Source of the DNA: Corticibacter populi
GTDB taxonomy: Bacteria; Pseudomonadota; Gammaproteobacteria; Burkholderiales; Burkholderiaceae_C
Reading direction: 5' to 3'
Assembly (NCBI RefSeq): GCF_004217315.1
Contig: NZ_SGWR01000003.1
Location: 62,001 to 126,000 of the forward strand
DNA: 64,000 bases
In this document: positions 26,279-59,417 of the stretch, piece by piece
Layout: each line of letters starts with the position of its first letter
Numbering within the stretch: position 1 is the first letter of the stretch
Made by a program: the position numbers and the translations under genes
Notes under the pieces: model-generated
Databases searched by the model: none
What the model was told of the DNA's origin: nothing
What the model saw: only the letters and a program-made list of their open reading frames with translations

Positions 26279-26397
26279 CGCTGATCCGTCAGCGCCATGC
26301 CAGCAGCCACGGTCTTCCAGGCTGCGATGCGGTCTCCCGCACCGACCGAACCAGTCCGCGCCGCATCACACCGGCGGACGCACGCCAGCCATGGCGT
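26279..26397 (+). ncRNA. Five-hairpin repeat element, copy A
   Basis: Stems: P1 CGCTGA/TCAGCG (26279-26294), P2 GCAGCC/GGCTGC (26303-26325), P3 GCGG/CCGC (26329-26340), P4 GTCCGC/GCGGAC (26354-26379) and P5 ACGCC/GGCGT (26382-26397). CATGCC lies between P1 and P2, and GCATC in the P4 loop. It is in the 312-bp gap upstream of the GHKL ATPase gene (ATG 26530). Confidence 0.75.
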
Positions 26398-26529
26398 CGA
26401 TGCCTCTTCTTTCCTCACCTCGCCCGGTAGCTGGCCCATCCAGTTCTGCCATCGCCTGCGCTCGCCTTGCCTGAGCGCCATTCCTCCACGCGCCTCGATG
26501 GGCGCATCACTTGTCCAAGGAGTTCAACC

Positions 26530-28098
26530 ATGTCCACGATTCGTCTCAAGACCAATCAGCACCGCCTGATCGCCAACCTGCGCCATGCGTTCAACCAGAC
26601 CTCCATGCTGGGCGAACTGCTGCAGAACGCCCGACGCGCCCAGGCCACATACATACACGTCACCGCATACGACGATACGCTGACCGTCGGCGACGACGGC
26701 ACGGGCATCGACGATCTGCAAACCCTCATCCACATCGCCGAGTCCGGCTGGGACGACGCGCTGATCGCCCGCGAGAACGCCTTTGGCCTGGGCGTGTTGT
26801 CCACGCTGTACTTCGCCCGGCGCCTGAGCGTGCGCTCCATCGATCAAGCCTTTCAGGCAGATACCGCAACCATCATCAGCGGCGGCGACGTCGAGGTGGT
26901 TCGCGCGCCACTGTGCAACGGCACCGAGATCCGCCTGGAGGGCGTTGCTTCCCCGCAGGCGGGCTTGGGCTTGGCCGAGTGGGTTCAACGCGAGCTTGCG
27001 CGGCTGTGCGAGGCATTCCCTGTCCCCGTGCTGTTCAACGGCGTCGAGATCGCCCGGCCGCTTTCCGACCCCTCCCTGCAATGGAGGCAGACCGGGATGG
27101 GCCGCGTGCTGCTCGATCTGTCCGCGTCGCGCACCCAGTGGCGATGCTTCCTGCAAGGGCTGCCCATCGGCACGCAACCCACGTTCAGCAACCACCATCA
27201 GGTCATCCTGCTGCGCGACGATCTGATCGCCCGGCTTCCGGATCGGCAGCATCTGCTGAACGAGACGGAGGACCACAAGCGCATCCAGGCCGCGATCGAT
27301 CAGGCCTATCGCGAGACCCTGATCGAAGCCAAGGCACGCCTGACCGGCAGCGAGTTCGTCGAACGGTATGGATCGACATGCCTGGGCTCCTCGAACGCCG
27401 ACCTGCTCAACGACGTGCCATTCGCGCAGCGAAGCTGGTTCCGGGACTGGGCCGGCGAGCCGCCCGGCTACCGGCGGTACTGGGAGCGCTACGTGCTCGA
27501 AGGCATTGTCCCCAAGGAGGCGCTCGAAGCCACCGGCGTCTGGCACGTCGAGGAAGATGTGGTCGACGAACTGGTGGCACAGGTCTATCTGGAGGCGCGC
27601 GAAGCCTTCCTGCTCGAAGAAGCCCACCTCGATCCCGGGCATTGGTTGAATGGCCTGGTCAAGACCGTCGATCCGAGCCAGATCGTCGTCAGGCAAGGGG
27701 CGACCCTGCATGAGGATGCCAATCCTCCGCTGGCCGACTATCCGCTGGTGCTGAAACTGGTCGAGACGCTTCAGGTCAGCCTGGAAGGCGAGCCGGGCGA
27801 CTATACGGTCGAAGCCGTGCGCCAGGGCGAGACCCTCTACCTCACGCCTGGGACAGATCAGGTCACGCGGCTTGTCTGCGACTACATCTTCGACGATCGC
27901 TACGACGAGAATCGCGAGGATGAGGACGCGGACGCCATCGCCACCTTCATCGCCGTGGGCCGTTCGCTGGATCCGGCCGCTGTCGTCAGTGCTTTGCTGC
28001 CGAACTCGCTGCGCCACAGTCCGCTGCAGCGGTTGGCCGGGGCGACCGTACACCTGGTGTTCGATGGCGAAGGAAAGCTGCAGGAAGTCACGTCCTGA
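26530..28098 (+). CDS. GHKL (Hsp90/MutL-fold) ATP-binding ICE protein
   Basis: A 522-residue protein. Bergerat-fold motifs are clear: N box GELLQNARRA (Glu29, Asn33), G1 DDGTGIDD (55-62) and G2 AFGLGVLS (84-91). The remainder (about 150-520) has no recognised domain and contains an acidic patch (DDRYDENREDEDAD) near residue 460. Relatives occur in ICEs of this type without assigned function. The fold suggests ATP-driven clamp or chaperone-like movement. A 5-hairpin element and a 312-bp leader precede it, and a strong terminator follows. Confidence 0.82.
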   Translation: MSTIRLKTNQHRLIANLRHAFNQTSMLGELLQNARRAQATYIHVTAYDDTLTVGDDGTGIDDLQTLIHIAESGWDDALIARENAFGLGVLSTLYFARRLSVRSIDQAFQADTATIISGGDVEVVRAPLCNGTEIRLEGVASPQAGLGLAEWVQRELARLCEAFPVPVLFNGVEIARPLSDPSLQWRQTGMGRVLLDLSASRTQWRCFLQGLPIGTQPTFSNHHQVILLRDDLIARLPDRQHLLNETEDHKRIQAAIDQAYRETLIEAKARLTGSEFVERYGSTCLGSSNADLLNDVPFAQRSWFRDWAGEPPGYRRYWERYVLEGIVPKEALEATGVWHVEEDVVDELVAQVYLEAREAFLLEEAHLDPGHWLNGLVKTVDPSQIVVRQGATLHEDANPPLADYPLVLKLVETLQVSLEGEPGDYTVEAVRQGETLYLTPGTDQVTRLVCDYIFDDRYDENREDEDADAIATFIAVGRSLDPAAVVSALLPNSLRHSPLQRLAGATVHLVFDGEGKLQEVTS

Positions 28099-28110
28099 GC
28101 CCATCGCATG

Positions 28111-28137
28111 AACGCTCCTTCGGGAGCGTTCTTTTTT
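28111..28137 (+). terminator. Rho-independent terminator after the GHKL gene
   Basis: AACGCTCC-TTCG-GGAGCGTT followed by CTTTTTT. It lies 13 bases after the stop, so the gene is probably its own transcription unit. Confidence 0.9.
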
Positions 28138-28222
28138 CATCCGTCCTCGAATAGGGCGCCCCCGGCTCCCCATTCCGGCATGACGGCCGCCGCGATCCGG
28201 CCGAAGCTGCCGCGCATGCGTC

Positions 28223-28338
28223 GCTGATCCGTCAGCACCATGCCAGCAGCCAAGGTCGTCCAGGCTGCGCCGCGGAGCCTTCCGCGCCGACCCACCCGTC
28301 CGCTTCGCATCGTCCCGCGGACGAACGCCCCAGGGCGT
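28223..28338 (+). ncRNA. Five-hairpin repeat element, copy B
   Basis: Stems: P1 GCTGA/TCAGC (28223-28236), P2 GCAGCC/GGCTGC (28246-28268), P3 CGCGGA/TCCGCG (28271-28286), P4 GTCCGC/GCGGAC (28298-28322) and P5 ACGCCC/GGGCGT (28325-28338). It precedes the 190-residue protein gene (ATG 28425). Confidence 0.78.
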
Positions 28339-28424
28339 CGATGCTCGTTCTTCCTTCCACCCGCACGGGATACCCACATCCCGGCGGATGCGGCACGTCC
28401 CGTCTTTTCAAGCAGGAGTGCCAC

Positions 28425-28997
28425 ATGGAAACCCATCTGACCCAACAGCGCATCACCCTCAAGAACCTCAAGGTAGCCGAGTTCGCCAGCGAGGAAACCC
28501 TGTGCTTCACCGCCACCGTGCTGTTCGACGGCCAGGCCATCGCCTATGCCAAGAACGACGGCCAGGGCGGCCAGACCATCGTCTGGCCCTGCGTGCTCGG
28601 AGAACCCATCCGGGAACAGATTCGCCAAGCCGCGGCGTACGCCGAGACGCTTCCGCCCGAAGTGACCGACTATCCCGACCCCGACGACAGCACCCGCCGG
28701 CTGACCATCGACATCACGCTGGACTATCTCGTCGATCACCTGGCCGAGACGATGCACGCCGAACGCAAGATCCGATCGGCGTTTCAGCGCGACATCGGCA
28801 ACAAGGTGCTGTTCGTGAAGGACGGCAGGCTGCTGTTCGTGAAAGGCGCCAAGCTCAAGGCCATCGCCGACAAGGCCGCCTACTTCGCGTCGCTGCGCGC
28901 CCGGCAGGACAAGCCCGTCGTCATCCTGGCCGAGCTGCCGGCAGACGAAGCGTTCGCCCTGTGGCAGCAACATGTCGTCAAGGACGATCCGTCCTGA
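28425..28997 (+). CDS. ICE protein of unknown function (190 aa)
   Basis: A 190-residue soluble protein from the ATG at 28425 with AGCAGGAG upstream. The N-terminal half is beta-rich (LKVAEFASEETLCFTATVLF), with no signal peptide or membrane segment. The C-terminal half has a basic stretch (LLFVKGAKLKAIADKAAYF). No family recognised. It stands alone between a five-hairpin leader and a terminator, like several other genes of this block. Confidence 0.72.
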   Translation: METHLTQQRITLKNLKVAEFASEETLCFTATVLFDGQAIAYAKNDGQGGQTIVWPCVLGEPIREQIRQAAAYAETLPPEVTDYPDPDDSTRRLTIDITLDYLVDHLAETMHAERKIRSAFQRDIGNKVLFVKDGRLLFVKGAKLKAIADKAAYFASLRARQDKPVVILAELPADEAFALWQQHVVKDDPS

Positions 28998-29024
28998 TCC
29001 GCCCGCGTCGTCGTGTGCCCATCC

Positions 29025-29051
29025 AAGCCCCGCATTGCGGGGCTTCTTTTT
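29025..29051 (+). terminator. Rho-independent terminator
   Basis: AAGCCCCGC-ATT-GCGGGGCTT followed by CTTTTT, 27 bases after the stop of the 190-residue protein gene. Confidence 0.9.
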
Positions 29052-29142
29052 GTCCACGGAGTTCGGCAATCGGGGCGCTGACCACTTCCCATTTCGGCAT
29101 GACCGAGGCGCACAACGCGATCGATGCTCGCTGACATGCGTC

Positions 29143-29256
29143 GCTGACCTTGTCAGCACCATGCCAGCAGCCCGGGGTTCGGGGCTGCCGCGGGATTTCC
29201 CGCGATACCCACCAGTCCGCCTCGCATCGCACCGCGGACGAGCGTCCACGTGACGC
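29143..29256 (+). ncRNA. Five-hairpin repeat element, copy C
   Basis: Stems: P1 GCTGAC/GTCAGC (29143-29157), P2 GCAGCC/GGCTGC (29167-29188), P3 CGCGGG/CCCGCG (29189-29204), P4 GTCCGC/GCGGAC (29215-29239) and P5 GCGTC/GACGC (29242-29256). It precedes the 83-residue protein gene (ATG 29337). Confidence 0.78.
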
Positions 29257-29336
29257 AGATGCCTTCGTGTCCAACCCCTCGGGAGTTCCATGCCCGTCGG
29301 GCCATGGCCTCCCGGTTCCTTCAGCCAGGAGAACCC

Positions 29337-29588
29337 ATGTCCCTTGCGTCCACATCGGCGCCGTTGAGCGTTGCACAAGCCCGTGCCGATTCCATCGGCT
29401 ATCTCGCCCTGGTCTATGCGGACAAGCGCCTGCCCCTGCAGGTGCGTCAGAGCGCCGCCGGCCACTACATCGGCACTGCCGACGACGACGGACCGGTCTC
29501 TCGTGAGTCCGTCGAGTACTTCCGTTCCCACCACGCGGCAGGCCACGCCCTGGCAACGGGGCGTTGGCAGCAGCGTCTCCATCCCTGA
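29337..29588 (+). CDS. Small ICE protein of unknown function (83 aa)
   Basis: An 83-residue protein with AGGAG upstream of the ATG at 29337. It is mixed in charge, with no membrane segment. The middle contains RQSAAGHYIGTADDDGPVSR, a pattern seen in small ICE proteins but without known function. The 24-base gap to the next gene suggests co-transcription. Confidence 0.65.
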   Translation: MSLASTSAPLSVAQARADSIGYLALVYADKRLPLQVRQSAAGHYIGTADDDGPVSRESVEYFRSHHAAGHALATGRWQQRLHP

Positions 29589-29612
29589 CATCCAACCATC
29601 CGGAGCACTGTC

Positions 29613-30011
29613 ATGAACCTGTCTGTTTCTATTCCCCCCGAAGTCATCGACCAGATCGCGATGGAAGACCGGCACTTCGCCGCAGCGCCCGAGGCCTTCT
29701 TCCAAGCCTGGAAGCGCGGTGCGGAAATCGCCGGCGTCGAGTGGTTCGGCGACGGCACACGCGAAGGCCTGCAGCGTGCCACCAGCAAGTGGGATCTGCG
29801 GCCCAACATGCTGCTGCTCAACGACGCCCTGGGTGTCCTGAGCAGCGGTCAGCGGATGTTCCTCTCCGCGATGGTCAGCTTCTACAACTCCCGCGAAGGC
29901 GGCGCGATGCTCAAGCGTTGCGGCTTCGAGGGGCTGTCCGACTTCGGCGGCCTCGACCTGCAGCGGCGCAAGGTCATCGCCGACCTCACGCTCAACTACA
30001 ACGGCTGGTAA
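29613..30011 (+). CDS. Conserved ICE protein of unknown function (132 aa)
   Basis: A 132-residue acidic-to-neutral soluble protein, probably mostly helical (PEAFFQAWKRGAEIAGVEWF, then GQRMFLSAMVSFYNSREGG). No family function is known to me. It follows the 83-residue gene by 24 bases and ends before an attenuator-like hairpin. Confidence 0.72.
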   Translation: MNLSVSIPPEVIDQIAMEDRHFAAAPEAFFQAWKRGAEIAGVEWFGDGTREGLQRATSKWDLRPNMLLLNDALGVLSSGQRMFLSAMVSFYNSREGGAMLKRCGFEGLSDFGGLDLQRRKVIADLTLNYNGW

Positions 30012-30053
30012 GCCAACGCCTGGCATACCTCCCGACTTTCCTTTCCACCCCTA

Positions 30054-30097
30054 GAGGGACATGCGTCCCGACCGGGGCCATGTCCCTCCTTTTTTTC
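30054..30097 (+). terminator. Hairpin with T-run directly before a ribosome site
   Basis: GAGGGACAT (30054-30062) pairs with ATGTCCCTC (30080-30088) and eight Ts follow (30090-30097). The ribosome site CAGGAG and the ATG at 30109 come right after. It can serve as terminator for the upstream gene and as attenuator of the downstream one. Confidence 0.8.
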
Positions 30098-30108
30098 CAG
30101 GAGCGAAC

Positions 30109-30573
30109 ATGACCCGACCTGCATCCCTGGCCGTCGTCCTCGAAGGCGGCCTCGTACAAGCCCTCCTGGTCCAGGACTGGCCTGCACATGTCCCGCTGCC
30201 ATGCATCGCCGTGGTGGACTACGACACCGAAGGCGCCGACGACGACGAGATCACGCACTTCCTGATCGGCGGGAAGCCGGAGGAGGCGGTCTGTCGCAGC
30301 GACGTACCGGAGGTGTACGAACACCTCACCGACGCGCTGTCCCCGCTGGCCGTCCTGACGGCACTGGGTGACCCGCCGCCGGATGACGACGGCGAACCGC
30401 CGCTCGCGCTCGCGCAGAGCGTCCGCCAGAGCATCCTCGACCTCGACGCTCGCATCAATCAGTCCGAGCAGCCGCCCACCGGCGACGACTACAACCACTT
30501 GTACGTCCTCGCGAACTGCGGCCTGATCGATGTCCTCAAGGCACTGGGAGACCCCACCGATTTCGGTGAGTGA
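30109..30573 (+). CDS. Acidic ICE protein of unknown function (154 aa)
   Basis: A 154-residue, very acidic protein (CIAVVDYDTEGADDDEITHF, then GDPPPDDDGEPP). Strongly acidic small proteins on mobile elements are sometimes DNA mimics that block host nucleases; that is a speculation from composition. It starts right after an attenuator-like hairpin and is followed by a terminator. Confidence 0.7.
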   Translation: MTRPASLAVVLEGGLVQALLVQDWPAHVPLPCIAVVDYDTEGADDDEITHFLIGGKPEEAVCRSDVPEVYEHLTDALSPLAVLTALGDPPPDDDGEPPLALAQSVRQSILDLDARINQSEQPPTGDDYNHLYVLANCGLIDVLKALGDPTDFGE

Positions 30574-30592
30574 TCCAGCGCCTTTCCACCTG

Positions 30593-30619
30593 CCCGACGT
30601 CATCCGGCGTCGGGTTTTT
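30593..30619 (+). terminator. Rho-independent terminator
   Basis: CCCGACG pairs with CGTCGGG across an 8-base loop and is followed by TTTTT. It is 20 bases after the stop of the 154-residue gene. Confidence 0.85.
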
Positions 30620-30679
30620 CCCCTGCGGATGCCATGTCCGCACGGGCTGGCTCCGCTTCATCCTATCCGGAGCCAACCC

Positions 30680-31375
30680 ATGGCAAACAACTACTACGAC
30701 GCTACCGGTGTGCTCGTGCTCGACCGGGTAACCCCGGTCATCCGAGCGCTCTTCGGCGGCTTCAACCTCGACGAGACCTATCCCGGCGACGGCAAGGTCT
30801 ACATCGCGCGCATTTCCGAGAGCAACGACCCGCAATGGGACGACCTGCTTGAAACCCTCACGGATCTGGCCGAGCAACTGGACCTTGCCTCACAGGCCAC
30901 CGACGACGAACCGCCCACGGTCGCATCGGTCTTGAGAGCGCTGTCGCGGCATTTCGGCACCGACAACAGCGAAGCGCTGAACCAGCTTATCGACAACGAC
31001 CCGTTCGATGGCCCGGCGGATCTCGATGCGCTGTTCCTCATCGCCACGCATTTCGACGACGGCCACAACCTGGTCGAACTGCACATGCAAGGCTGCTGGC
31101 ATTGCAGCAAGCCCCGCCTGTTCGAGTTCGGCGGGGATGGCTGCTTTCTCAGCCGGGAACTCAGCCTGTTCAGCGCATCCGAGCATGTTCTGTATCTGGG
31201 GGTCGACCTGCGCAAGGCGCTCCTGGCCAATGACATCCAGACCAGTGCCACCCAGATCGCCCAGGAAACACTCGACCTGCTCTGCGCCATCAGCGACGAC
31301 CAGTTGCGCAAGCAATTGCATCGACGCGTCATCTGGCACCTGATCGAAAGCCTCTCCGACCACAGCGCGGAGTAA
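30680..31375 (+). CDS. Conserved ICE protein of unknown function (231 aa)
   Basis: A 231-residue acidic soluble protein from the ATG at 30680. It contains NNYYDATGVLVLDRVTPVIR near the start, with features of ICE proteins in this block, and a CWHC pair near residue 140 that might bind metal. No known function. The gap to the next gene holds the first GGGG/CCCC/GGGG leader. Confidence 0.72.
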   Translation: MANNYYDATGVLVLDRVTPVIRALFGGFNLDETYPGDGKVYIARISESNDPQWDDLLETLTDLAEQLDLASQATDDEPPTVASVLRALSRHFGTDNSEALNQLIDNDPFDGPADLDALFLIATHFDDGHNLVELHMQGCWHCSKPRLFEFGGDGCFLSRELSLFSASEHVLYLGVDLRKALLANDIQTSATQIAQETLDLLCAISDDQLRKQLHRRVIWHLIESLSDHSAE

Positions 31376-31394
31376 CTCGCTACCACTTCATCCA

Positions 31395-31422
31395 CCCGCC
31401 GGGGTTCAATCCCCCGCAGGGG
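31395..31422 (+). repeat. GGGG/CCCC/GGGG leader, copy 1
   Basis: CGGGG (31400-31404), CCCCG (31412-31416) and GGGG (31419-31422) allow two mutually exclusive hairpins 34 bases before the ATG at 31456. Confidence 0.6.
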
Positions 31423-31455
31423 ATTGGCTCGGCCATCCTCTGCTGGAGAAATCCC

Positions 31456-32172
31456 ATGTCGAAACCTGAAAATCCTTTCGCCCGTGGCTACCACGATTTC
31501 GAGATCCGGCGCGTTGTCGTCATCAGCTACGACGACCGCCATCCTCAGACCTTCCTGCCGCTGCATCCGTCCCAAGCTCATCTTACCGACGACAAGGTGG
31601 CATTCCAGGCATGCGTCTTCAATGACGACTTTGCGCTGATCACCGAAGGGCAGAGCGTGGCATCCGAACTCGACGCGCTTTGCGGCGGCAGCGGAACGGT
31701 CCAGGCCGTGTTTCACAGCGTCTACGGTCGAACCGTCGAGCGCGGCTTCATCCACGTCGGCGACAGCTACACCTTGGAGGCCGCACAGGAAGTGGTGCGC
31801 AATCTGCGATTCGAGACCGGCTTCTACAGCCGGTGCTGGGAGATCAGTTCCGCCCACGTCACCGAGGAGGCCAGCCGCTACCTGGCCGAACTGGCCGACC
31901 TCGCGACGCCGACCCGCTTCTTGTTCATCGCGTTCCGGATTCCGTACAGCCCGGCGATCGGCGTCAAGCTGTACTGCACGCCGTGGACGGACGAGAACCT
32001 GCAGATGGTCGACGGCACGACCGCCGAGCGCCTGCGGCAGGAGCATCGCAAGAAGGGCATGCCCGAGTGCCTCGTCGAGGTACTTCACCTGGCCGCGCTC
32101 GCCGACGTGCGCATGCTGGTGTTCGACGCCGATGCGCCGGTGCTGGACGGCTTGCCGCTGTACGACTGGTAG
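31456..32172 (+). CDS. Conserved ICE protein of unknown function (238 aa)
   Basis: A 238-residue soluble protein with alternating helical and beta segments. Recognisable ICE-family segments include EIRRVVVISYDDRHPQTF and CWEISSAHVTEEASRYLAEL. It may belong to the family named DUF5983, a tentative match. No catalytic motif is visible. Confidence 0.7.
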   Translation: MSKPENPFARGYHDFEIRRVVVISYDDRHPQTFLPLHPSQAHLTDDKVAFQACVFNDDFALITEGQSVASELDALCGGSGTVQAVFHSVYGRTVERGFIHVGDSYTLEAAQEVVRNLRFETGFYSRCWEISSAHVTEEASRYLAELADLATPTRFLFIAFRIPYSPAIGVKLYCTPWTDENLQMVDGTTAERLRQEHRKKGMPECLVEVLHLAALADVRMLVFDADAPVLDGLPLYDW

Positions 32173-32258
32173 TCCCCGCGCTCTCCGGAGCATCCACCGT
32201 TCTTGCGGATCGGCCACCCGCGAGGAGCGCCGATCCGCTCTTGTTCAGGAGTATCCCC

Positions 32259-32714
32259 ATGTTCCACTCACAGCCGACACCCGGCTCGCACGATGCCGGT
32301 CGCATGTCCCCTCCCAACCAGGCCTTGAACGCGCTGCTGATACGCCTGGGAAGCACCGTCCGCGACCTGTGCCAGCGCCAGGTCGACAAGCATCGGTCTC
32401 TCGACAACCTTGACCTACCCAGCATCGTCGATCACCTCCTGCGCGATCATGGTGCAGAGACGGACTTCGATCAGCAACTCATCGCCTGCATCAACGCCAT
32501 GTGCCAGAACGATGCCATGGGCCAGACCCTGGCGTTCCTGCGCAATGACGGCAAGCTGCACATGCGCCACATCAACACACTGGATCTTCTAGGCCCCGGC
32601 CTCGATCGCTACGAGATGGTGTTGTTCGATGGCGGCAACAGTCACGGTGACCGCTGGAAGCATGTGTTCTTCCCGGCCCAGCGCATGCACTACTTCGTCT
32701 ACGAGGATCTCTGA
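32259..32714 (+). CDS. Conserved ICE protein of unknown function (151 aa)
   Basis: A 151-residue protein from the ATG at 32259 (CAGGAG upstream). Mostly helical in the first 100 residues (LNALLIRLGSTVRDLCQRQV), ending in an aromatic-rich tail (HVFFPAQRMHYFVYEDL). No recognised domain. A terminator follows at once. Confidence 0.7.
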   Translation: MFHSQPTPGSHDAGRMSPPNQALNALLIRLGSTVRDLCQRQVDKHRSLDNLDLPSIVDHLLRDHGAETDFDQQLIACINAMCQNDAMGQTLAFLRNDGKLHMRHINTLDLLGPGLDRYEMVLFDGGNSHGDRWKHVFFPAQRMHYFVYEDL

Positions 32715-32725
32715 CCCTTCCCACT

Positions 32726-32749
32726 GCCCCTCCACAGAGGGGCTTTTTT
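32726..32749 (+). terminator. Rho-independent terminator
   Basis: GCCCCTC and GAGGGGC form a short GC stem followed by seven Ts, 12 bases after the stop of the 151-residue gene. Confidence 0.88.
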
Positions 32750-32836
32750 TGGCTGCGTGAAACCAATACGGGAACGGGCGGATTCGATTTGCGCCAGACA
32801 CTGAGGCCATCGCCTCGCCATTCTGGCGGCATGTTC

Positions 32837-32937
32837 GCTGGCGTTGCCGGCAGCATGCCCAGGCAGTCGAGACCTTCAAGACTGTGGCGCGGGTCTCCGT
32901 GCCGGTTGTTTGTCCTCGTCGGACGCATACCGCGTCC
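32837..32937 (+). ncRNA. Five-hairpin repeat element, copy D (most divergent)
   Basis: P1 GCTGGC/GCCGGC (32837-32851), P2 CAGTC/GACTG (32864-32884), P3 GGCGCGG/CCGTGCC (32886-32903, one G-U), P4 weak GTCC/GGAC (32912-32924) and P5 GGACGC/GCGTCC (32921-32937); P4 and P5 overlap. CATGCCC follows P1. It precedes the 269-residue protein gene (ATG 33006). Confidence 0.65.
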
Positions 32938-33005
32938 ATTCACCCCCCAAGGGATCTTCCTCCCTTGTGGGCGGGAGTCCCTTGCATTTCTTCAAGGAGT
33001 CTCCC

Positions 33006-33815
33006 ATGGACCGTACCGCTATTCGCAACCAGATGGCCACGCTCGTTGCGGGTCACGTCCCGCGCAACGTGCGTTCGTTCAAGTTCCGCTTATTCGACAG
33101 CCAGCCGCAGGAATCCACCCTCGGATTCGTGATCGATCCCAAGCCTTTCGACGGCAAGGTGGTGGCGATGACCGATGACGCCATCGTTCTCAAGACCTCT
33201 CGTGCCGAGTTCGCGGTGCTGGACCGCGACCTGGTGACCGTCGTCCCCGACGAAGGCGCCAAGGTGCACGTCCAGCCCTACGCACGGCGCCGCTTCGACG
33301 GCCTGCGTGCGGACACCCCGGAAGAGCGCACCGAGTACACCTCCGATGGCAAGCCGTACACCATCCAGACGCACATCCTCGGTTCGGCACCGGCCAAGCT
33401 GCCCATCCCCGAACCCAAGTGCCCCGAACTGCACGACCTGATCCAGCAACTGGAGGAACTGCCGGCGCCCGACCGCTTCCGGAAGATCACCCACATGCTG
33501 GTCGATGCCGGGGCCAAGGACTTCAGCTGGGTCGATCCGGCACCGGCCAAGATCATCGAGACGCCTCCGGCGATCAGCTTCTCCGTCTCCACGACGAAGT
33601 TCGAGGGTCGGGTCACCGTGCTCTACGACCGTGCCGGCGACGTGTATGTGATCGAACTGCATCAAGGCAATGAACTCATCGAGCGCATCGACGAGGTGTA
33701 CTTCGACAGCCTCGGCGAGGTGCTGGCGCGTCGTATCGACGACGGTCGCTGGCGCCAGATCCAGGTGACCGTCCTGGAGCAGGCCAAACGCACGCGCAAA
33801 GCCCTCTCGGCGTGA
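33006..33815 (+). CDS. Conserved ICE protein of unknown function (269 aa)
   Basis: A 269-residue soluble protein starting at 33006 with AAGGAG upstream. The first 90 residues look like a small beta-barrel (STLGFVIDPKPFDGKVVAMT, VLKTSRAEFAVLDRDLVTVV). The end is helical and basic (VTVLEQAKRTRKALSA). No known function. A degenerate GC leader and the fourth five-hairpin copy lie upstream. Confidence 0.75.
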   Translation: MDRTAIRNQMATLVAGHVPRNVRSFKFRLFDSQPQESTLGFVIDPKPFDGKVVAMTDDAIVLKTSRAEFAVLDRDLVTVVPDEGAKVHVQPYARRRFDGLRADTPEERTEYTSDGKPYTIQTHILGSAPAKLPIPEPKCPELHDLIQQLEELPAPDRFRKITHMLVDAGAKDFSWVDPAPAKIIETPPAISFSVSTTKFEGRVTVLYDRAGDVYVIELHQGNELIERIDEVYFDSLGEVLARRIDDGRWRQIQVTVLEQAKRTRKALSA

Positions 33816-33873
33816 TCCGCCGGGCTGCGGCTTTCGCGGCCTTCCTTCCATCCAATCTTGAGGAGATTTCTCC

Positions 33874-34239
33874 ATGTCCCTGCGATTCAAGGGGGTCGAT
33901 CTGCGCCCGGTGTTAGCCGAAGCAGTTGCCAACCAGTGCCGCGTCGTCCTCGCCAAGGACCAAGGCGCCTACTTCCTCGCCGAGCGCGGTGAGCGCCTTC
34001 CCGGCGGACGCCAGAAGCTGATCGCCTACGCGGTCGGCTGCAACCCCGACGTCGATCCGTTCGACGACTGGTGGGCGCTGGTGAACGCCGAACTGGGCGG
34101 CGATGATTTCGGGGAGTTCTTCGACATACAGGACGGCGTATTCGCCCGCATCCTGCACAGCGAAGACGACCTGGAGTTGTCCGCCACCGAGACGCACCTG
34201 TCCCTGCAGGCGGTCCCGGCCATCTCCAGCGCACGGTAG
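33874..34239 (+). CDS. DUF3085 protein
   Basis: A 121-residue protein that matches DUF3085 (SLRFKGVDLRPVLAEAVANQ, then KLIAYAVGCNPDVDPFDDWW and GDDFGEFFD). The family is typical of ICEs and some plasmids and has no known biochemistry. It starts 58 bases after the 269-residue gene and is followed by a strong terminator. Confidence 0.85.
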   Translation: MSLRFKGVDLRPVLAEAVANQCRVVLAKDQGAYFLAERGERLPGGRQKLIAYAVGCNPDVDPFDDWWALVNAELGGDDFGEFFDIQDGVFARILHSEDDLELSATETHLSLQAVPAISSAR

Positions 34240-34257
34240 CGCCTGCCACCTCCATCC

Positions 34258-34284
34258 AGCCCCCGCTCGCGGGGGCTTTTCTTT
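34258..34284 (+). terminator. Rho-independent terminator after DUF3085
   Basis: AGCCCCCGC-TC-GCGGGGGCT followed by TTTCTTT, 18 bases after the stop. Confidence 0.88.
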
Positions 34285-34385
34285 GGGGGCGCGGGCAGTG
34301 CGTGCATTCGGGAAAAAGGGAGGGCACCGGATGCCGATTCATCGCTGCCTGTCGTTCGCCACCGTGCCACGCTGCTGCCATGTTC

Positions 34386-34509
34386 CGCTGATCTCGGTCA
34401 GCGACATGCCCAGGTAGCCGGATCTTCAAGGCTACGGCGCGGTTCCGACCGCGTTGATCATCCCAGTTCGCACCGGCATCCATGCGCGAACGCCCATCGG
34501 CAACGATGG
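34386..34509 (+). ncRNA. Five-hairpin repeat element, copy E (upstream of DUF3577)
   Basis: Stems: P1 CGCTGA/TCAGCG (34386-34403), P2 GTAGCC/GGCTAC (34414-34435), P3 CGCGGT/ACCGCG (34438-34453), P4 GTTCGC/GCGAAC (34466-34491) and P5 CCATCG/CGATGG (34494-34509). CATGCCC lies between P1 and P2. It precedes the DUF3577 gene (ATG 34605). A published candidate RNA named DUF3577 occurs upstream of this gene family; identity has not been tested. Confidence 0.8.
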
Positions 34510-34604
34510 TGATGCCACAAGCGTTCCTTCAACCCGCGCGGGGGTTCCACACCTCCCCGCCAGGGTCGGGTGTGTCTCCGCATCTTTGTCATCTGGAGAT
34601 CATC

Positions 34605-35147
34605 ATGACCACGTCCACCGAAAAAACCTACTTCGACCTGCACATCACCGGCTTCGGCTACCTCAATCGCATCCGCGAGGTGAAGCCCAAGAAGGGGTCC
34701 CCCTTCCTGGCCTGCGACATCGCAGCACTCAACGGTCCCAGCGACGACGTGTCCTACGTGCGTTTCGACACCCGCGTTTCCGGCAACGAAGCGCAGCACC
34801 TGGTCCGCCGCTGCGAGGACGCCGTCAAGGCCGAAAAGAAGGTCCTGATCGGCTTCCGCCTGGGCGACCTCTGGGCCGACGTCTTCACCTACACCAAGGG
34901 GAAGCGCGTCGGCGAACAAGGGGTGAGCTTCAAGGCCCGCCTGCTGTTCATCTCTTGGATCAAGGTCGATGGCGAGCTCGTCTACAAGGCCGAGCCCAAG
35001 CCGACCGACTCCGACGAACGCGAGAGCGACGTTTCGGCCCCCTCCGAAGCGCCGGCCCCGCAGGAAGCTCCGGCCCAGGCGTCCCCCGCGCCGGCCGCTG
35101 AAGCCCCCGTCGAGGCCCCCGAACTGGCGGCCGCCGAGTCGTTCTGA
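34605..35147 (+). CDS. DUF3577 / STY4534-family ICE replication protein
   Basis: A 180-residue protein with an OB-like core over residues 1-130 (YFDLHITGFGYLNRIREVK, then GSPFLACDIAALNGPSDD, SYVRFDTRVSG) and a Pro/Ala/Glu-rich tail ending in AAAESF, reminiscent of SSB-type C-termini. The family is called STY4534 ICE replication protein. It might bind single strands of the element during replication or transfer; the function is a family name, not shown here. It has a 365-bp structured leader and its own terminator. Confidence 0.88.
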   Translation: MTTSTEKTYFDLHITGFGYLNRIREVKPKKGSPFLACDIAALNGPSDDVSYVRFDTRVSGNEAQHLVRRCEDAVKAEKKVLIGFRLGDLWADVFTYTKGKRVGEQGVSFKARLLFISWIKVDGELVYKAEPKPTDSDERESDVSAPSEAPAPQEAPAQASPAPAAEAPVEAPELAAAESF

Positions 35148-35160
35148 CCCGCTGATCCAC

Positions 35161-35184
35161 AAGGCCCCGTTCTCCGGGGCCTTG
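35161..35184 (+). terminator. Rho-independent terminator after DUF3577
   Basis: AAGGCCCCG-TTCT-CCGGGGCCTT followed by GTTCTT, 14 bases after the stop. The T run is imperfect. Confidence 0.8.
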
Positions 35185-35264
35185 TTCTTCTCCCCGCAGC
35201 CATCCGCCACCGGCCATTCGCGCCGATGGCGGACGGCTGTTCCTTTATCCGCAGGAGCCCACCC

Positions 35265-35879
35265 ATGATCACCCTCCCAGGCCAGTTGGCCATCAAGACC
35301 ATCCACGGCAGGAACGGCGACTTCAACGTCGGCCGCCTCGCCACCTCCATCGGCGAGTTCGTCGTGAAGAACGCCGAACTCGACCAGTACGACGAAGGCA
35401 AGTACGAGGGCGATTTCGTCATCGCCGAGATCCGGCCGTCCACGTACCACGCCAACGGCCGCATGGTCATCGAAATCCGCGCCTTGCTGGGCGGAATGAC
35501 CTTGTCCAACGTCGATGCCCTGAGCGGGGACGAAGCCCGGCAGTTGAGCCCGCAGGAAGTCGACCCGATCGACGAAGAAGCGCAGGCCCCCGCGCCGGCC
35601 AAGGCCAAGGCACCGGCCAAGGCGAAGTCCCGCGGCCCGCGTGATCCGCTGGTCGATACCACGCCCTTCGGCAGCGCCACCACAGCCCCCGTCACCTCCG
35701 AGGCTTCGGCCGAGGCGGACGACGCGGCGCTGTTCGGCACGCTCTGGCCGCTGGACGAGATCGTCAAGCTCGATGCCACCGTCGATCGCCGCGTCCTGCG
35801 TCAGCAGCGCGACCGTCTCGGCATGCTGGGCTACACCTTCGAGCCCTTGTCCCAGGACTGGCATCTCGCCAAGGCCTGA
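35265..35879 (+). CDS. DUF3275 protein
   Basis: A 204-residue DUF3275 protein (NGDFNVGRLATSIGEFVVKN, then EGKYEGDFVIAEIRPSTY). The N-terminal 100 residues form the conserved domain, a Lys/Ala/Pro-rich linker spans about 110-130, and the C-terminal 60 residues form a second small conserved block (LRQQRDRLGMLGYTFEPLSQ). It is ICE-specific and of unknown function, usually next to DUF3577 as here. Confidence 0.87.
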   Translation: MITLPGQLAIKTIHGRNGDFNVGRLATSIGEFVVKNAELDQYDEGKYEGDFVIAEIRPSTYHANGRMVIEIRALLGGMTLSNVDALSGDEARQLSPQEVDPIDEEAQAPAPAKAKAPAKAKSRGPRDPLVDTTPFGSATTAPVTSEASAEADDAALFGTLWPLDEIVKLDATVDRRVLRQQRDRLGMLGYTFEPLSQDWHLAKA

Positions 35880-35912
35880 TCCACCCGTCGCTTCGGCGAC
35901 GTTCCACCGCCC

Positions 35913-35935
35913 GCCGGGGTTCTTCCCTGCGGGGG
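35913..35935 (+). repeat. GGGG/CCCC/GGGG leader, copy 2
   Basis: GGGG (35916-35919), CCC (35925-35927) and GGGGG (35931-35935) lie 36 bases before the ATG at 35971. The middle block is one base shorter than in other copies. Confidence 0.5.
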
Positions 35936-35970
35936 AGGACTCCGGCTACTTCTTACTGGAGGCTTCCATC

Positions 35971-36318
35971 ATGTCCATGATCGCTTGCGATACCCCTTCA
36001 CACCCCATCGGGGATCCCCGTTCCGCGCTGGATGAACCCGCGTGGCAGGCTGTCTGCAAGACAGCTGCCGAGCACGCCCAGCGTGGTTGCGGCCTCGCCT
36101 GGGAGCACTGGGTCACGCTTTTCAGCTCGGAGATCGACATGCAAGTCAGTCGGTTGCCGGAAGACCAGCGCGCTCATGCCCTGGAAATCGCAGCCCAGGA
36201 ATGGGACTACGCAACGCCTGCCGAGCGGCAGGAAACCCAGGACTGGCTTGCCGAAAACGGCTGCTGCTCCCACGGCATCACCTTGGGCTGCTGCCCGGCC
36301 GGTTGCGGCTCGTACTGA
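35971..36318 (+). CDS. Small Cys-rich-tailed ICE protein (115 aa)
   Basis: A 115-residue protein from the ATG at 35971 (GGAGG upstream). The body is helical and acidic. The last 20 residues contain five cysteines (CCSHGITLGCCPAGC), a compact arrangement that could bind a metal. No family function known to me. Confidence 0.72.
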   Translation: MSMIACDTPSHPIGDPRSALDEPAWQAVCKTAAEHAQRGCGLAWEHWVTLFSSEIDMQVSRLPEDQRAHALEIAAQEWDYATPAERQETQDWLAENGCCSHGITLGCCPAGCGSY

Positions 36319-36365
36319 GAACCGGAACCTGGCTCCATCGTCGCTCAGGCGGCATTTCACCACCC

Positions 36366-36388
36366 GCCGGGGTTCTGCCCCGATGGGG
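36366..36388 (+). repeat. GGGG/CCCC/GGGG leader, copy 3
   Basis: CGGGG (36368-36372), CCCCG (36378-36382) and GGGG (36385-36388), 33 bases before the ATG at 36421. Confidence 0.6.
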
Positions 36389-36420
36389 AAGCTCCGGCTC
36401 CTTTTCTTCAGGAGACCCTC

Positions 36421-36819
36421 ATGGGCTGGTTTTTCTCACCGCAATCCCGATCCGAGCTGATCGCGGAACTGATCCAACCGCAGGAAACCGAACGCGCCAG
36501 CGTCAAGGTCGTTGCCCACGCGCTGCGCGGCAACGTCCTGTGGTCCGTCGCCGAAGTCACCGCCAAGGTGGAAGGCGTGCATCGGAATCTCGCCCCCGGC
36601 CAGTCCCTTCGCTACATCCGCTGCGATCTTCTGGAACGCAGCGGCGGCGAATGGGGCTACAAGCCGATGGAGGAGGCCATGCACCCGTACTACTACTCGT
36701 GCCCGGCGTCCTATCTCGACATGGCACCGGAGCAGTCCCGCGAATGGCGCGAGGGCGTGCGTGCGTTCCACGCGCGTCGGCGAACGCCCACGATGCCGGC
36801 AACGGTGCTTGTGGCTTGA
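36421..36819 (+). CDS. Conserved ICE protein of unknown function (132 aa)
   Basis: A 132-residue soluble protein (NVLWSVAEVTAKVEGVHRNL, then LRYIRCDLLERSGGEWGYKP and MHPYYYSCPASYLDM). The middle is beta-rich. This conserved sequence is common in ICE and plasmid proteins without a defined function. It is followed by a further small gene after 16 bases. Confidence 0.75.
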   Translation: MGWFFSPQSRSELIAELIQPQETERASVKVVAHALRGNVLWSVAEVTAKVEGVHRNLAPGQSLRYIRCDLLERSGGEWGYKPMEEAMHPYYYSCPASYLDMAPEQSREWREGVRAFHARRRTPTMPATVLVA

Positions 36820-36835
36820 GCCTGGGAGAGACGAT

Positions 36836-37096: not shown

Positions 37097-37111
37097 GCGG
37101 TTCCTTCTCCA

Positions 37112-42271: not shown

Positions 42272-42514
42272 CCGCGCTCGCACTGCGAGCCACACCTCGC
42301 ATAACCACCGTCACCGAACAACCGCGCCCTTGTGGGCCTGCCTGATCACGAGCGGGCTGGACGCTCCGCCCCGACATTCGCTGCTCGACCACGCCACGAC
42401 CTCGGGGGACGTGCGTTCCAGGGAAAAGCGGGTGCGGTGCAAAGCCCATTCTCGGCTGACCCAAGCAATCGACGCAGCGATCGTGTGGCCTGAACACTTT
42501 CAGGAGTCCGGTCG

Positions 42515-50101: not shown

Positions 50102-50331
50102 ACGCCGCGCAGATCAGCGCCTTCCAGGCGAACGGCGGGTTCGCGCCCGCAGCCGTGTCGGTCGTGCTGGTCGGTGCCGTGTTCGCCGTCCTGCTGGTCT
50201 GGGGCGTGTGGGCCATGCGCACCGCCTACACCGGCTGGGCCGAGCAACGCCTTTCCCAACGTCAGTTCCTGGGCGTCGTGGTGCGCTTCATCGCCATGTA
50301 CCTGGTGCTGACCTTCTTCCTGCTCTCGTAA
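50098..50331 (+). CDS. ICE membrane protein TIGR03758 (PFL_4701, DUF3262)
   Basis: A 77-residue protein with two membrane helices (AAVSVVLVGAVFAVLLVWGV; RFIAMYLVLTFFLL). Size and topology resemble conjugative pilins or small T4SS inner-membrane subunits of the VirB2/3 kind. It is followed by another two-helix protein. Confidence 0.86.
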   Translation: MNAAQISAFQANGGFAPAAVSVVLVGAVFAVLLVWGVWAMRTAYTGWAEQRLSQRQFLGVVVRFIAMYLVLTFFLLS

Positions 50332-50349
50332 CTCGCAAAGGTCGCCATC

Positions 50350-50715: not shown

Positions 50716-50725
50716 AGGCGCCGTC

Positions 50726-57396: not shown

Positions 57397-57441
57397 CTGC
57401 CCGCGACAACGGGGCTCGGTTCCGGATCGGCGCTGCGTGCG

Positions 57442-57975
57442 TCAGGCGCCGGTCGGTGGCGCGATCTTCTTGAGCACGCCGTTCGGGTCATAGACGCGCA
57501 GTTGCTCCTCGGGCCGTTCGGAACTGCGGTAGATCACCAGGTTCGTACCGCCCGGCCGTGCTTGAGAGGGGAAGAGGATGCCGTCGAGCCCGGCGTCCAC
57601 CACGTCATCGGCCATGTACCAGGTCGGCGGCTCGATGGACTTGTCGAACCATTCCGCGCGCCAGTCCACCGCGTAGTCCGCCCACAGCGACGGCCAGCGC
57701 TCCGGATCGAAGCCGGCACTGAGATCGGCGATCCGCAGGTGGTTCACGAAGAACGTGCAGATCGTGCCAGGCGGCAGCCATGGATTGTCCTGCTTGTACT
57801 CGGCCAGCGCAGTCGCGTCGTCCAGCGAGAGGTACAGCGCTTCCTGCCCGGGCCGATTGAAGCGGCCGCCGCGGCGCGCGGCGCCCTTGCCCGATCGCGG
57901 CGTGCCCGCGTACTCAGGTGTGATGACGCGGTAGCAAGCGGCGTCCTTGCCCTCGCCGAAGGGCGCGACGATCAT
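57442..57975 (-). CDS. RES-domain toxin
   Basis: A 177-residue RES protein with the family blocks ACYRVITPEYAG, GGRFNRPGQEALYLS and the ending NLVIYRSSERPEEQLRV; the Arg near 16, Tyr near 48 and Ser near 151 match positions used for NAD+ binding and breakdown in the family. RES toxins deplete NAD+. The gene overlaps the 3' end of its Xre antitoxin by 4 bases, and the pair is inserted against the direction of the transfer operon. Confidence 0.9.
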   Translation of the reverse strand: MIVAPFGEGKDAACYRVITPEYAGTPRSGKGAARRGGRFNRPGQEALYLSLDDATALAEYKQDNPWLPPGTICTFFVNHLRIADLSAGFDPERWPSLWADYAVDWRAEWFDKSIEPPTWYMADDVVDAGLDGILFPSQARPGGTNLVIYRSSERPEEQLRVYDPNGVLKKIAPPTGA

Positions 57976-58343
57976 CCAGCCGCACCGCCGGCCAGCGATT
58001 CCAGATAGGCAATGACGGCATCGGCCCGGCCTTCCTGGATCAGGGCCTCGGCGGTCTTGTAGCCGAAGGCACGCAGCGGCTCATTGCGCAGCAGGAAGAC
58101 CGCACGCTTCTCGTCGCCGGTCATCTCGGTCGCCACGGCCAGCACGCGCACCATGTCCTGCAGGTACTTCTGCAACTGCGGCGTCTGCGGGCGCGCGGTC
58201 GGCGTGTTGCGGTGCACGTGGGCACGCTCGGCCAGCTCCTGGATGCGCAGGCCGAAGAACTCCCCCACCTTCGCCGGGGAGAGGAACGGGGTATCGGACT
58301 CTCTGAACCGCTCGACCAGCGGCTCCTGGAACACGGTGCTCAT
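57972..58343 (-). CDS. Xre/MbcA/ParS-type antitoxin
   Basis: A 123-residue antitoxin. The N-terminal half is an Xre-like HTH (KVGEFFGLRIQELAERAHVH), and the C-terminal half is the DUF2384 toxin-binding domain (RAFGYKTAEALIQEGRADAV, then IAYLESLAGG). It neutralises the RES toxin and represses the pair. A short repeat-bearing promoter lies just upstream. Confidence 0.9.
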   Translation of the reverse strand: MSTVFQEPLVERFRESDTPFLSPAKVGEFFGLRIQELAERAHVHRNTPTARPQTPQLQKYLQDMVRVLAVATEMTGDEKRAVFLLRNEPLRAFGYKTAEALIQEGRADAVIAYLESLAGGAAG

Positions 58344-58363
58344 GGGGCATCACCTCGCCGGAT

Positions 58364-58387
58364 GTCGATGCACTAATTTTGCACCCA
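58364..58387 (-). promoter_or_regulatory. Operator/promoter region of the RES-Xre pair
   Basis: Read on the minus strand, TGCA occurs twice as GGGTGCAAAATTAGTGCA, the only AT-rich stretch near the antitoxin start. GAGGTGAT lies before the ATG at 58343. Probably a promoter with an Xre site; no experiment supports it. Confidence 0.4.
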
Positions 58388-58561
58388 AAACGCTCTCAGC
58401 GCAACCGGAAGCGCTCTGGATCGCCGCTGGCCGTCCCGGGCTGGGCGCAAGCCTGCCCAAAGAACAGGAAGCCCCCCGGTACCGGATTGTTGCCCGACAC
58501 CAGCGCCCCGGCATGGTCGACTCGCCCATCGACGCCTGCTCGCCCATCACCGGGACCCCCA

Positions 58562-59323
58562 ATGCCAACGACTACCCGCTCCCCGCGCGGCGCACTGCGC
58601 CGCCTGGCCTGGCCGGCCGCCGTCGCGGCCCTGGCGCTGCTGCTGTTGCTGCTGGCCGTGCGGCCCTCCGCGCCGCCAGCGGACGACACCACGCCACGTC
58701 CCGGGCAGGAAGAAGGGGAGACGGCAGCACCATCCCCGCCGGCCGGCCCGCCCTGGCACCACGGCGGCGCCGACACGCGTTTTACCGTGATCCTCTACGC
58801 CGACCTGGAATGCCCGTTCTGCAAGGCCTACTACCCCGAGCTGGTGGCCTGGATCGAACGCCATCCGGACGCAAGGCTGCAGTGGCATCACCTGCCCCTG
58901 TCCGTGCACGAACCGGCGGCGTCGCAGTTGGCCAGCCTGGCCGAGTGTGCGGGCGAAGCCGGCGGGCACGCCGCGTACTGGCAGGCGGTGACCTGGATCT
59001 ACCAGCACACCCGCGGCGACGGAGCAGGCCTGCCGGAGAACGCGCGCCTTCCGGGCCAGACCGAAACCGTGGACGCCTGCGTGGAAAGCGGCCGCACCCT
59101 GCCGCTGATCCAGGCGCAGGCCCGCGAGGGCGCGCGCGACGGCATCACCGCCACGCCGACCCTGCGCCTGCGCGACGACACCACGGGCCAGACGCTGCTG
59201 CTGCACGGCCCGGTGGAGGGCGACGCACTGCTGTCGGCACTGGACCTGCTCACCGCCGGCGAGTCGCCATCCACCGAATCCGAAGGTTTGTCCGCCGTCC
59301 CTGACGGCGACATGCCCAGGTAG
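58562..59323 (+). CDS. Membrane-anchored DsbA-like thiol-disulfide protein
   Basis: A 253-residue protein from the ATG at 58562. A membrane anchor spans about residues 18-34, then a Pro-rich linker and a DsbA-type thioredoxin domain (FTVILYADLECPFCKAYYPE) with Cys84-P-F-Cys87. The cis-Pro region reads GITATPTLRL. It would oxidise or isomerise disulfides in periplasmic transfer proteins such as the TraU/TraH-like ones downstream. The last 11 codons overlap the first stem of repeat copy F. Confidence 0.88.
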   Translation: MPTTTRSPRGALRRLAWPAAVAALALLLLLLAVRPSAPPADDTTPRPGQEEGETAAPSPPAGPPWHHGGADTRFTVILYADLECPFCKAYYPELVAWIERHPDARLQWHHLPLSVHEPAASQLASLAECAGEAGGHAAYWQAVTWIYQHTRGDGAGLPENARLPGQTETVDACVESGRTLPLIQAQAREGARDGITATPTLRLRDDTTGQTLLLHGPVEGDALLSALDLLTAGESPSTESEGLSAVPDGDMPR

Positions 59324-59417
59324 CCCGGGTCTTCAAGGCTACGGCGCGGCGCGGCCGCGTTGACCACCCCGTCCGCATCGCATCCTTCGAGGCGGACAGC
59401 CATCGCGCCCGCGATGG
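59293..59417 (+). ncRNA. Five-hairpin repeat element, copy F (upstream of radC)
   Basis: Stems: P1 CGCCGTC/GACGGCG (59293-59309), P2 GTAGCC/GGCTAC (59320-59342), P3 CGCGGC/GCCGCG (59345-59359), P4 GTCCGC/GCGGAC (59371-59397) and P5 CCATCGC/GCGATGG (59400-59417). CATGCCC lies between P1 and P2. P1 is inside the end of the dsbA-like gene. The radC ATG is at 59514. Confidence 0.8.

Follow-up and report, generated by a model that had tools for sequence, protein, structure and literature searches.

A 64,000-nucleotide stretch of the Corticibacter populi genome (contig NZ_SGWR01000003.1, positions 62,001 to 126,000; "the window" hereafter means this whole stretch) lies on contig C3 of a 4.2-Mb genome and contains what looks like an integrative conjugative element (ICE). 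Six of its genes are preceded by copies of one multi-hairpin element, which raises the question of whether these hairpins act as RNA or as DNA. A reading of the sequence alone had proposed either an element-wide regulon or DNA hairpins that serve as single-strand promoters in the recipient, like Frpo on the F plasmid. It had also suggested a search against Rfam. We found that all six copies match a single family, RF01754 or radC RNA, over the whole model and on the + strand (79.0-119.3 bits, E 4.8e-13 to 3.4e-22; curated cut-off 40 bits). RF01754 is the sole Rfam family matched in the window, and a search of the whole 4.2-Mb genome with it returned no copies beyond these six. From the evidence set out below, we judge it likely, at roughly 75%, that all six serve as radC-family 5' leader RNAs and act post-transcriptionally, mainly on translation. 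The copies, with their RF01754 scores, are as follows.

26262..26403, + strand: copy 1, before the GHKL-like ATPase gene (96.8 bits)
28205..28344, + strand: copy 2, before the 190-aa protein gene (79.0 bits)
29125..29262, + strand: copy 3, before the 83-aa protein gene (80.9 bits)
32820..32974, + strand: copy 4, before the 269-aa protein gene; variant 3' part, ending at 32960 by model R1 (90.5 bits)
34369..34515, + strand: copy 5, before the DUF3577 gene (119.3 bits)
59277..59424, + strand: copy 6, before the RadC gene; overlaps the 3' end of open reading frame (ORF) 58379-59323 (118.6 bits)

The hairpins therefore stand where the sequence-only reading had placed them, with ends shifted by up to about 40 bases. 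A described RNA motif upstream of DUF3577 genes, which that reading had mentioned, could not be confirmed from the titles of papers that mention DUF3577; among described families, it is radC RNA that the copies match. Its distances from copy to ATG were about right except at the RadC gene, where the start is better placed at 59514, an ATG with its own ribosome-binding site, than at 59421, an ATG of the same ORF that falls within the RNA. All six window copies lie upstream of protein-coding genes in sense orientation. Likewise, of the 224 matches listed from all sources, 218 could be assigned a start codon that has a ribosome-binding site, by a script that scanned the sense direction only. The suggestion that the copies mark a gene set of the element is supported.

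The radC RNA family has been known since it was named in 2010 and is functionally unexplained. The table entry on radC RNA in Weinberg et al. 2010 reads RNA 'Y', cis-reg 'y' and switch '?'. Our search of the open-licence literature, which is not proof of absence from print, found no paper on its function. What is new here is a helix (P4) and two pseudoknots, the strand on which the fold is kept, the placement of the RNA relative to an upstream motif or a preceding ORF, and a hairpin at the ribosome-binding site. A passage of the CaCoFold paper (PMC7657543) places radC among families whose database structure is without covarying pairs, and part of the structural correction may already stand in that 2020 work.

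Pattern and model searches gave at least 224 radC RNA matches in 150 sources (99 in 68 and 125 in 82). In this tally the window represents loci L001-L006, loci L007-L011 are left out, and some sources overlap or duplicate a genome. Removing identical matches and those shorter than 120 nt left 171 unique sequences. At least 118 of the stretches were gathered with a pattern that keeps part of P2 and its loop constant, so that the sample is incomplete and variation in P2 is underestimated.

Sequence comparison demonstrates a compact fold of helices P0-P5 plus two pseudoknots. In a sequence-only alignment of 34 copies (A1), 24 of 46 pairs were altered on both sides against 13.0 in shuffled alignments, a value that none of 500 shuffles reached; 90.1% of cells paired, the covariation score was 0.240 against 0.141 shuffled, and sliding the partners by 1-3 columns lowered pairing to 18-48%. 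In a larger, model-based alignment of 84 distinct rows (A2), 34 of 45 pairs were altered on both sides against 19.3 shuffled, again with no shuffle of 500 as high, and 93.9% of cells paired. All five covariation measures stood at 0/500 shuffles for the full structure on A2, and four of five did so on A1 and for the A2 pseudoknots alone; the 'further pair types' measure was reached by 92 of 500 shuffles on A1, which is not above chance, and by 24 of 500 for the pseudoknots. The earlier proposal that structure and not sequence is kept is supported on both alignments, and in the larger one, where a lack of significant covariation had been named as the outcome that would count against it, covariation is strong.

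The window copies fit RF01754 over the full model at 79-119 bits, but Rfam's drawn structure lacks three helices that covary: P4 and the two pseudoknots. The sequence-only reading had included P4, and its helices hold, with P5 the loosest (57.8% pairing in A1, 76.6% in A2); both pseudoknots had been missed. P4 (GTTCGC/GCGAAC) showed both-sided changes at two of six pairs in A1 and at all six in A2. In the first pseudoknot, PK1, GATC or GGTC of the P2 loop pairs with GATC or GACC 3' of P3; in the second, PK2, GCATC of the P4 loop pairs with GATGC at the 3' end of the RNA. Taken alone on A2, the pseudoknots paired in 97.1% of cells and had double changes at five of nine pairs against 2.3 shuffled; the model that aligned A2 held P4 and no pseudoknots. 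PK1 supplies most of this signal, PK2 being nearly invariant and hence less informative. The outer PK1 pair, which is not conserved (29 A-C and 3 G-T cells), was left out of the A2, pseudoknot, parsimony and dereplicated counts. Rfam instead draws a 3-bp helix between three P4 bases and the 3' end, which uses bases of both P4 and PK2. Because its cells mostly pair (140/146, 126/148 and 142/150), this helix survives on conservation alone; covariation favours P4.

To which strand does this fold belong? A one-sided mutation of a G-C pair leaves either G-T or A-C; a folding strand tolerates G-T, and A-C is expected if the other strand folds. On the coding strand of the 171 unique sequences, G-T cells outnumbered A-C cells in P0 (12 vs 3), P1 (54 vs 4), P2 (39 vs 3), P3 (179 vs 19) and P4 (28 vs 1), giving 300 against 27 for P1-P4, with 118 of the 300 from a single P3 closing pair. 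PK2 gave 13 vs 4, and PK1 gave 44 vs 38 with its outer pair and 41 vs 9 for the inner four pairs. When P5 and the outer PK1 pair were excluded, the counts were 132 vs 22 in 58 sequences dereplicated at 75% and 62 vs 11 in the sequence-only alignment; parsimony events on a tree, P5 included, numbered 128 vs 45. These comparative data indicate selection for the fold on the mRNA-sense strand, as opposed to the template strand. A double-stranded operator, in which a regulator binds inverted repeats, could make use of short palindromes such as CATG..CATG, but it should show symmetric G-T and A-C counts, which were not seen, and neither the pseudoknots nor compensatory changes with a one-strand wobble bias fit a double-stranded DNA site. 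We regard such an operator as highly improbable.

The strand result also bears on the single-strand promoter proposal, in which the hairpins would form in the recipient, on the strand transferred to it, and there recruit RNA polymerase. Like Frpo and ssi promoters, the radC RNA copies are structured elements before genes of a conjugative element; the single orientation of all six is in keeping with such a role, and plasmids do have leading-region single-stranded DNA (ssDNA) promoters, as a section of PMC11541004 describes. Such a promoter is disfavoured, however, because it needs the template strand folded (the transferred strand, once transcribed, is the template), while the wobble changes favour the coding strand; moreover, the origin of transfer was not located. 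By itself, the strand test does not separate RNA from coding-strand ssDNA. It is the position of the copies and the hairpins at the ribosome-binding sites that argue for RNA.

With respect to position, most copies outside the RadC type have a separate, promoter-like DNA motif upstream. Among 54 dereplicated upstream regions, RadC type included, conserved columns are found 40-65 bases ahead of P0, and a weaker CCAnnCT stands closer to it. We trained a matrix on 57 upstream regions from outside the window, leaving out the RadC type; its consensus is AATnnGGTnA-N8-TTCnGATT, and of the 57 training sites 50 score at least 10 and 7 score below. Its top seven matches in 104 kb score 18.5-23.9 and the next scores 14.5. 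At a cut-off of 9 there are 36 matches against 19-32 in five shuffles, so only the top ones are meaningful. The sites of interest are the following.

26206..26234, + strand: weak motif before copy 1 (score 13.7, below the top group and near noise)
29067..29095, + strand: motif before copy 3 (score 20.2)
32764..32792, + strand: motif before copy 4 (score 23.9)
34313..34341, + strand: motif before copy 5 (score 22.8)
42424..42452, + strand, and, by start, 13436, 49637 and 60077: the same motif near gene starts without radC RNA (scores 20.4, 19.5, 18.5 and 20.5)

Because three of the seven top sites precede copies 3, 4 and 5 and the other four adjoin other gene starts, we infer that the motif belongs to element promoters in general. 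The sites at 13436, 42424, 49637 and 60077 are candidate sites for an activator of the BisDC type. Terminator-like hairpins lie before copies 2-5 (28110, 29025, 32726 and 34258), among 16 in the stretch against 5.3 in shuffles. A simple consensus scan of 25900-36500, a weak test whose range does not take in copy 6, found no sigma-70-like site.

The RadC-type copies are placed differently. In 37 of 45 of them the RNA begins within 90 nt of the end of a long same-strand ORF, a placement shared by 9 of 116 other copies; in six examples that ORF ends 44 nt inside the RNA. As these 37 copies overlap or adjoin an ORF in front of them, the RadC-type RNA probably needs no dedicated promoter. The coding-strand fold and the separate upstream motif set the copies apart from Frpo and ssi elements; with the placement of the RadC-type copies also counting against it, we now consider a single-strand promoter function very unlikely.

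Comparison with ICEclc suggests how the upstream motif might be used. ORF67231 of that element is, we presume, RadC. In the sections of PMC9286271 that concern its transfer-competence regulon, nine upstream regions have promoter activity, the region before ORF67231 among them, and eight carry a common 27-bp motif. ICEclc is, in our judgement from gene content, a similar type of element, and in both cases a common motif of similar length precedes several operons; the two motifs may be the same. Its activator BisDC resembles FlhDC, and BisC resembles FlhC, only weakly, according to a passage of PMC7423338.

Between the RNA and the start codon, predicted folds contain a two-part hairpin (P6) and, after it, a second hairpin in which the ribosome-binding site is paired (P7). 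For the six window genes, the ribosome-binding-site elements are as follows.

26480..26523, + strand: hairpin of the GHKL-like gene (minimum-energy fold)
28392..28422, + strand: hairpin GGCAC..GTGCC of the 190-aa gene (predicted fold)
29314..29335, + strand: self-complementary region GGTTCCT/AGGAGAACC of the 83-aa gene (from sequence; the minimum-energy fold has another pairing that also covers the site)
32973..33005, + strand: hairpin GGGAGTCCCTTG/CAAGGAGTCTCCC of the 269-aa gene (predicted fold)
34575..34600, + strand: hairpin TCTCC/GGAGA of the DUF3577 gene (predicted fold)
59485..59508, + strand: hairpin GCCTCC/GGAGGC of the RadC gene (predicted fold)

Across gene families the P7 arms vary jointly, from GCCTCC/GGAGGC to TCTCC/GGAGA, GGGAGTCCCTTG/CAAGGAGTCTCCC and GGCAC/GTGCC, and in the pairs 3' of the ribosome-binding site all four Watson-Crick types occur. 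In predicted folds, 105 of 113 distinct leaders had three or more bases of the site paired upstream, compared with 256 of 416 controls; when two or more further flanking pairs were also required, the counts were 83/113 and 176/416 (p = 3e-9). The mean pairing probability of the site was 0.83 in 143 leaders and 0.66 in 223 controls. When the fold alone was scored, P6 plus a site hairpin preceded 89 of 113 radC-led genes against 13 of 25 host genes (p = 0.01). Leaders whose chosen start lay more than 160 nt away were left out of the site-pairing, arm-swap, fold-only and dereplicated/four-block counts, and gene clusters 3, 9 and 12 out of the arm-swap, site-hairpin, fold-only and dereplicated/four-block analyses (they are kept in the mean pairing probability), because in these the start finder skipped a small ORF or took a false start.

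A sequence-block pattern was adopted once the fold-only count had failed to separate element genes without the RNA from host genes. It consists of four blocks, CCC-GGGG-CCCC-GGG, followed by a ribosome-binding site and an ATG.

34533..34607, + strand: four-block hairpin module with ribosome-binding site and ATG (sequence pattern)
starts at 29275, 30048, 31395, 32943, 35910, 36363, 37112, 39036, 39464, 39876 and 59456, + strand: further four-block modules (sequence pattern)

Within 6501-64000, the part of the window assigned to the element, the pattern occurs 12 times on the + strand and once on the - strand, against none in 80 kb of flanking DNA (L007, L009-L011) and 0-3 in each of ten shuffles. 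The four blocks are found in 79 of 115 radC leaders against 23 of 576 mononucleotide shuffles, unevenly by family: RadC 29/31, DUF3577 22/28, the 269-aa family 12/24, cluster 4 2/11 and GHKL 0/3. Since the pattern precedes genes both with and without radC RNA, the P6-P7 module appears wider than the RNA itself.

Translational riboswitches and protein-bound mRNA leaders have the same layout, a structured domain with a hairpin over the ribosome-binding site behind it; the difference is that here many copies sit on one mobile element and no ligand is known. Alternatively, the fold might be an mRNA processing or stability element, protecting from or being cut by a nuclease and so setting the mRNA level or 5' end. 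The position of RadC-type copies at the end of the preceding ORF would suit this, and the ICEclc papers, in the parts that bear on the point, describe core transcripts that appear cleaved or processed (PMC2892462, PMC9286271), with post-transcriptional control suspected in one of the two. It would leave the pairing of the ribosome-binding site unexplained, and the main texts of both papers contain neither 'radC' nor 'hairpin', so that they are silent on this RNA by name. We consider a processing element unlikely.

Several results weigh against a leader RNA that acts on translation. On the side of the strand test, the bias is weaker in P5 (83 G-T vs 39 A-C in the unique sequences), kinship among the sequences means that cell counts overstate their independence, and the covariance model may slightly favour G-T, though the sequence-only alignment concurs. 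Upstream, the motif matrix gives copy 2 no score as high as 9, and copy 1 reaches just 13.7. At the ribosome-binding site, pairing is common in GC-rich leaders, occurring in 61% of the 416 controls. The fold-only test found no difference from host genes for element genes without the RNA (12/29, one of these being the RadC start, included in error) or for second-lineage regions (37/78). Finally, swapping hairpin arms between gene families weakened the hairpins only on average (-11.0 vs -9.5 kcal/mol, p = 0.07), and in five of 15 families a gene's own arms were the worse ones.

Taking these points into account, we hypothesize that translational leader RNAs of the radC family would work as follows. 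For most copies, transcription would start at an activator-dependent promoter just upstream, perhaps one served by an activator like BisDC of ICEclc; most copies before radC would instead be reached by transcription running on from the gene in front. By default, the ribosome-binding site would be closed. The pseudoknotted domain would then bind a signal (most likely a protein or some other factor produced while the element is active), and this signal would open or lock the site hairpin, such that several element genes respond together. CsrA was rejected as the binding protein, as the genome (99.68% complete) has no PF02599 match. One ProQ-domain protein is encoded, on contig C2, outside this element. 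The signal could also be a small molecule, which would make the RNA a riboswitch on the same translational platform; this is a special case of the leader-RNA reading, and its odds overlap with it. The complex pseudoknotted fold and the '?' for switch in the table of Weinberg et al. 2010 leave room for it, but the three largest downstream clusters (RadC, DUF3577 and the 269-aa protein) are not metabolic genes and none of 14 control genomes has the RNA. A small-molecule ligand thus seems doubtful to us, if less so than a processing role. With a corrected structure, the acting strand and a likely point of action at ribosome binding, the function of radC RNA becomes directly testable, for instance in ICEclc as a known model.

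The RNA was found in 10 of 200 genomes of the same family, with 3-8 matches each, and in 2 of 369 genomes of the same class, this genome being counted in both; 12 genomes picked for a radC-RNA-bearing record had 2-9 matches each. In the genomes listed, all copies on any one contig share one orientation, and a frequent layout has copies clustered within about 10 kb and a single further copy some 20-55 kb downstream. RadC (66), DUF3577 (46) and the 269-aa protein (43), named by their window members, lead the clusters among 218 downstream genes, and by coordinates different elements carry the same RNA before different genes. A blastn search with copy 5 and its downstream leader matched 6 of 72,556 plasmid records, and copy 5 had no match in E. 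coli genomes. An attempt to link the RNA with a single regulator gene from their shared presence or absence was dropped, as the lineages differ in too many genes.

DUF3577 genes also occur without radC RNA, both in a second element of this genome (contig C1, about 602-642 kb), which has relatives of DUF3577, DUF3275, ParA and a helicase, and in stretches of genomes G010, G029, G069, G148, G159 and G175. Transfer genes of the second element were sought with the window's own proteins only. Divergent radC RNA in the Rfam-negative DUF3577 elements was rejected: the best match had 14.9 bits (E 0.043) and was not adjacent to DUF3577. A model built from four alike leaders of the second element, R2, instead identified another leader RNA.

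L170:11741-11873, 12973-13101, 13529-13657, 16698-16822 and 18312-18435 (contig C1), - strand: R2 leader copies of the second element (model R2)

Full R2 copies number five in the second element, five each in G010 and G069, six in G175 (one on another contig) and one in G148, and R2 is present in 4 genomes of the same 200-genome search. In an alignment of 24 rows, three of them reverse-strand partial matches of a long hairpin, 34 of 39 R2 pairs had double changes against 19.9 shuffled, and the covariation score was 0.443 against 0.146; no shuffle among 500 reached the observed value of any measure. The 21 full copies gave 47 G-T vs 22 A-C cells. No Rfam family scored above cut-off at R2 leaders, and a lax search of part of L170 gave below-cut-off matches only. 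A start codon with a ribosome-binding site follows 19 of the 21 copies, and four blocks are present in 15 of these 19; the site is paired upstream in 14 of 19, which is not clearly above the 61% of controls. The four-block scan of second-lineage stretches gave no match in L176 and one in L172.

Thus two different RNA domains precede a like hairpin module, and we infer that the module may be a single functional platform. Tentatively, and at somewhat less than an even chance, we propose a modular riboregulation in which a common translational platform, the four blocks with the site hairpin, is joined to different sensor RNAs in several copies per element: radC RNA here, and R2 in another lineage that includes this genome's second element. 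Such RNAs would let each element switch a set of proteins on together, post-transcriptionally and at one particular point, for example when transfer is activated or when the element reaches a new host. Should several unrelated leader RNAs indeed share one platform, the control of conjugative elements has a further layer on top of the known transcriptional cascade, and this layer offers a handle on when the elements make their own proteins.

The genes behind the six copies, and those by which the window resembles an ICE, are given below.

26530..28098, + strand: GHKL-like ATPase gene (PF13589, E 4e-4, 20.9 bits)
28425..28997, + strand: 190-aa protein gene, no Pfam match
29337..29588, + strand: 83-aa protein gene, no Pfam match
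33006..33815, + strand: 269-aa protein gene, no Pfam match
34605..35147, + strand: DUF3577 protein gene (PF12101, E 3e-60)
59514..60014, + strand: RadC-family protein gene, start revised by ribosome-binding site (PF04002, E 2e-41, scanned as 59421-60014)
1798-3150: integrase-like gene
8617: ParA gene
13461: AcaB-family protein gene
22127: topoisomerase gene
46651: TraD gene
54514: TraC gene
L008:1946-4054, just outside the window: TraI_2 helicase/nickase gene

The GHKL label that the sequence-only reading had given to the first of these has a Pfam match behind it, one that falls below the cut-off of 25 bits.

Several minor observations concern DUF3577 loci and the R2-bearing elements. By eye, another conserved structured leader, GTGAACYGCC..GGCA..GCGTCTC..GAAAGGCGC, lies upstream of DUF3577 in L170, L172, L175/L176, L177 and L181. 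Several of these leaders are preceded by a promoter resembling TTGAC-N17-TAGATT, and their 3' end is a ribosome-binding-site hairpin resembling GATCTCC/GGAGATC. In G010, an abiF RNA (RF03085) lies at L173:19846-19882, with the nearest R2 leader copy about 9 kb upstream of it. Matches to group II intron D1-D4 lie at L161:18056-18347, between DUF3085-like and DUF3577 genes of an element in Paraburkholderia xenovorans LB400. In three contigs (G071:C22, G105:C9 and G136:C109), DUF3577 appears as two adjacent matches within one open frame of 363-372 aa.

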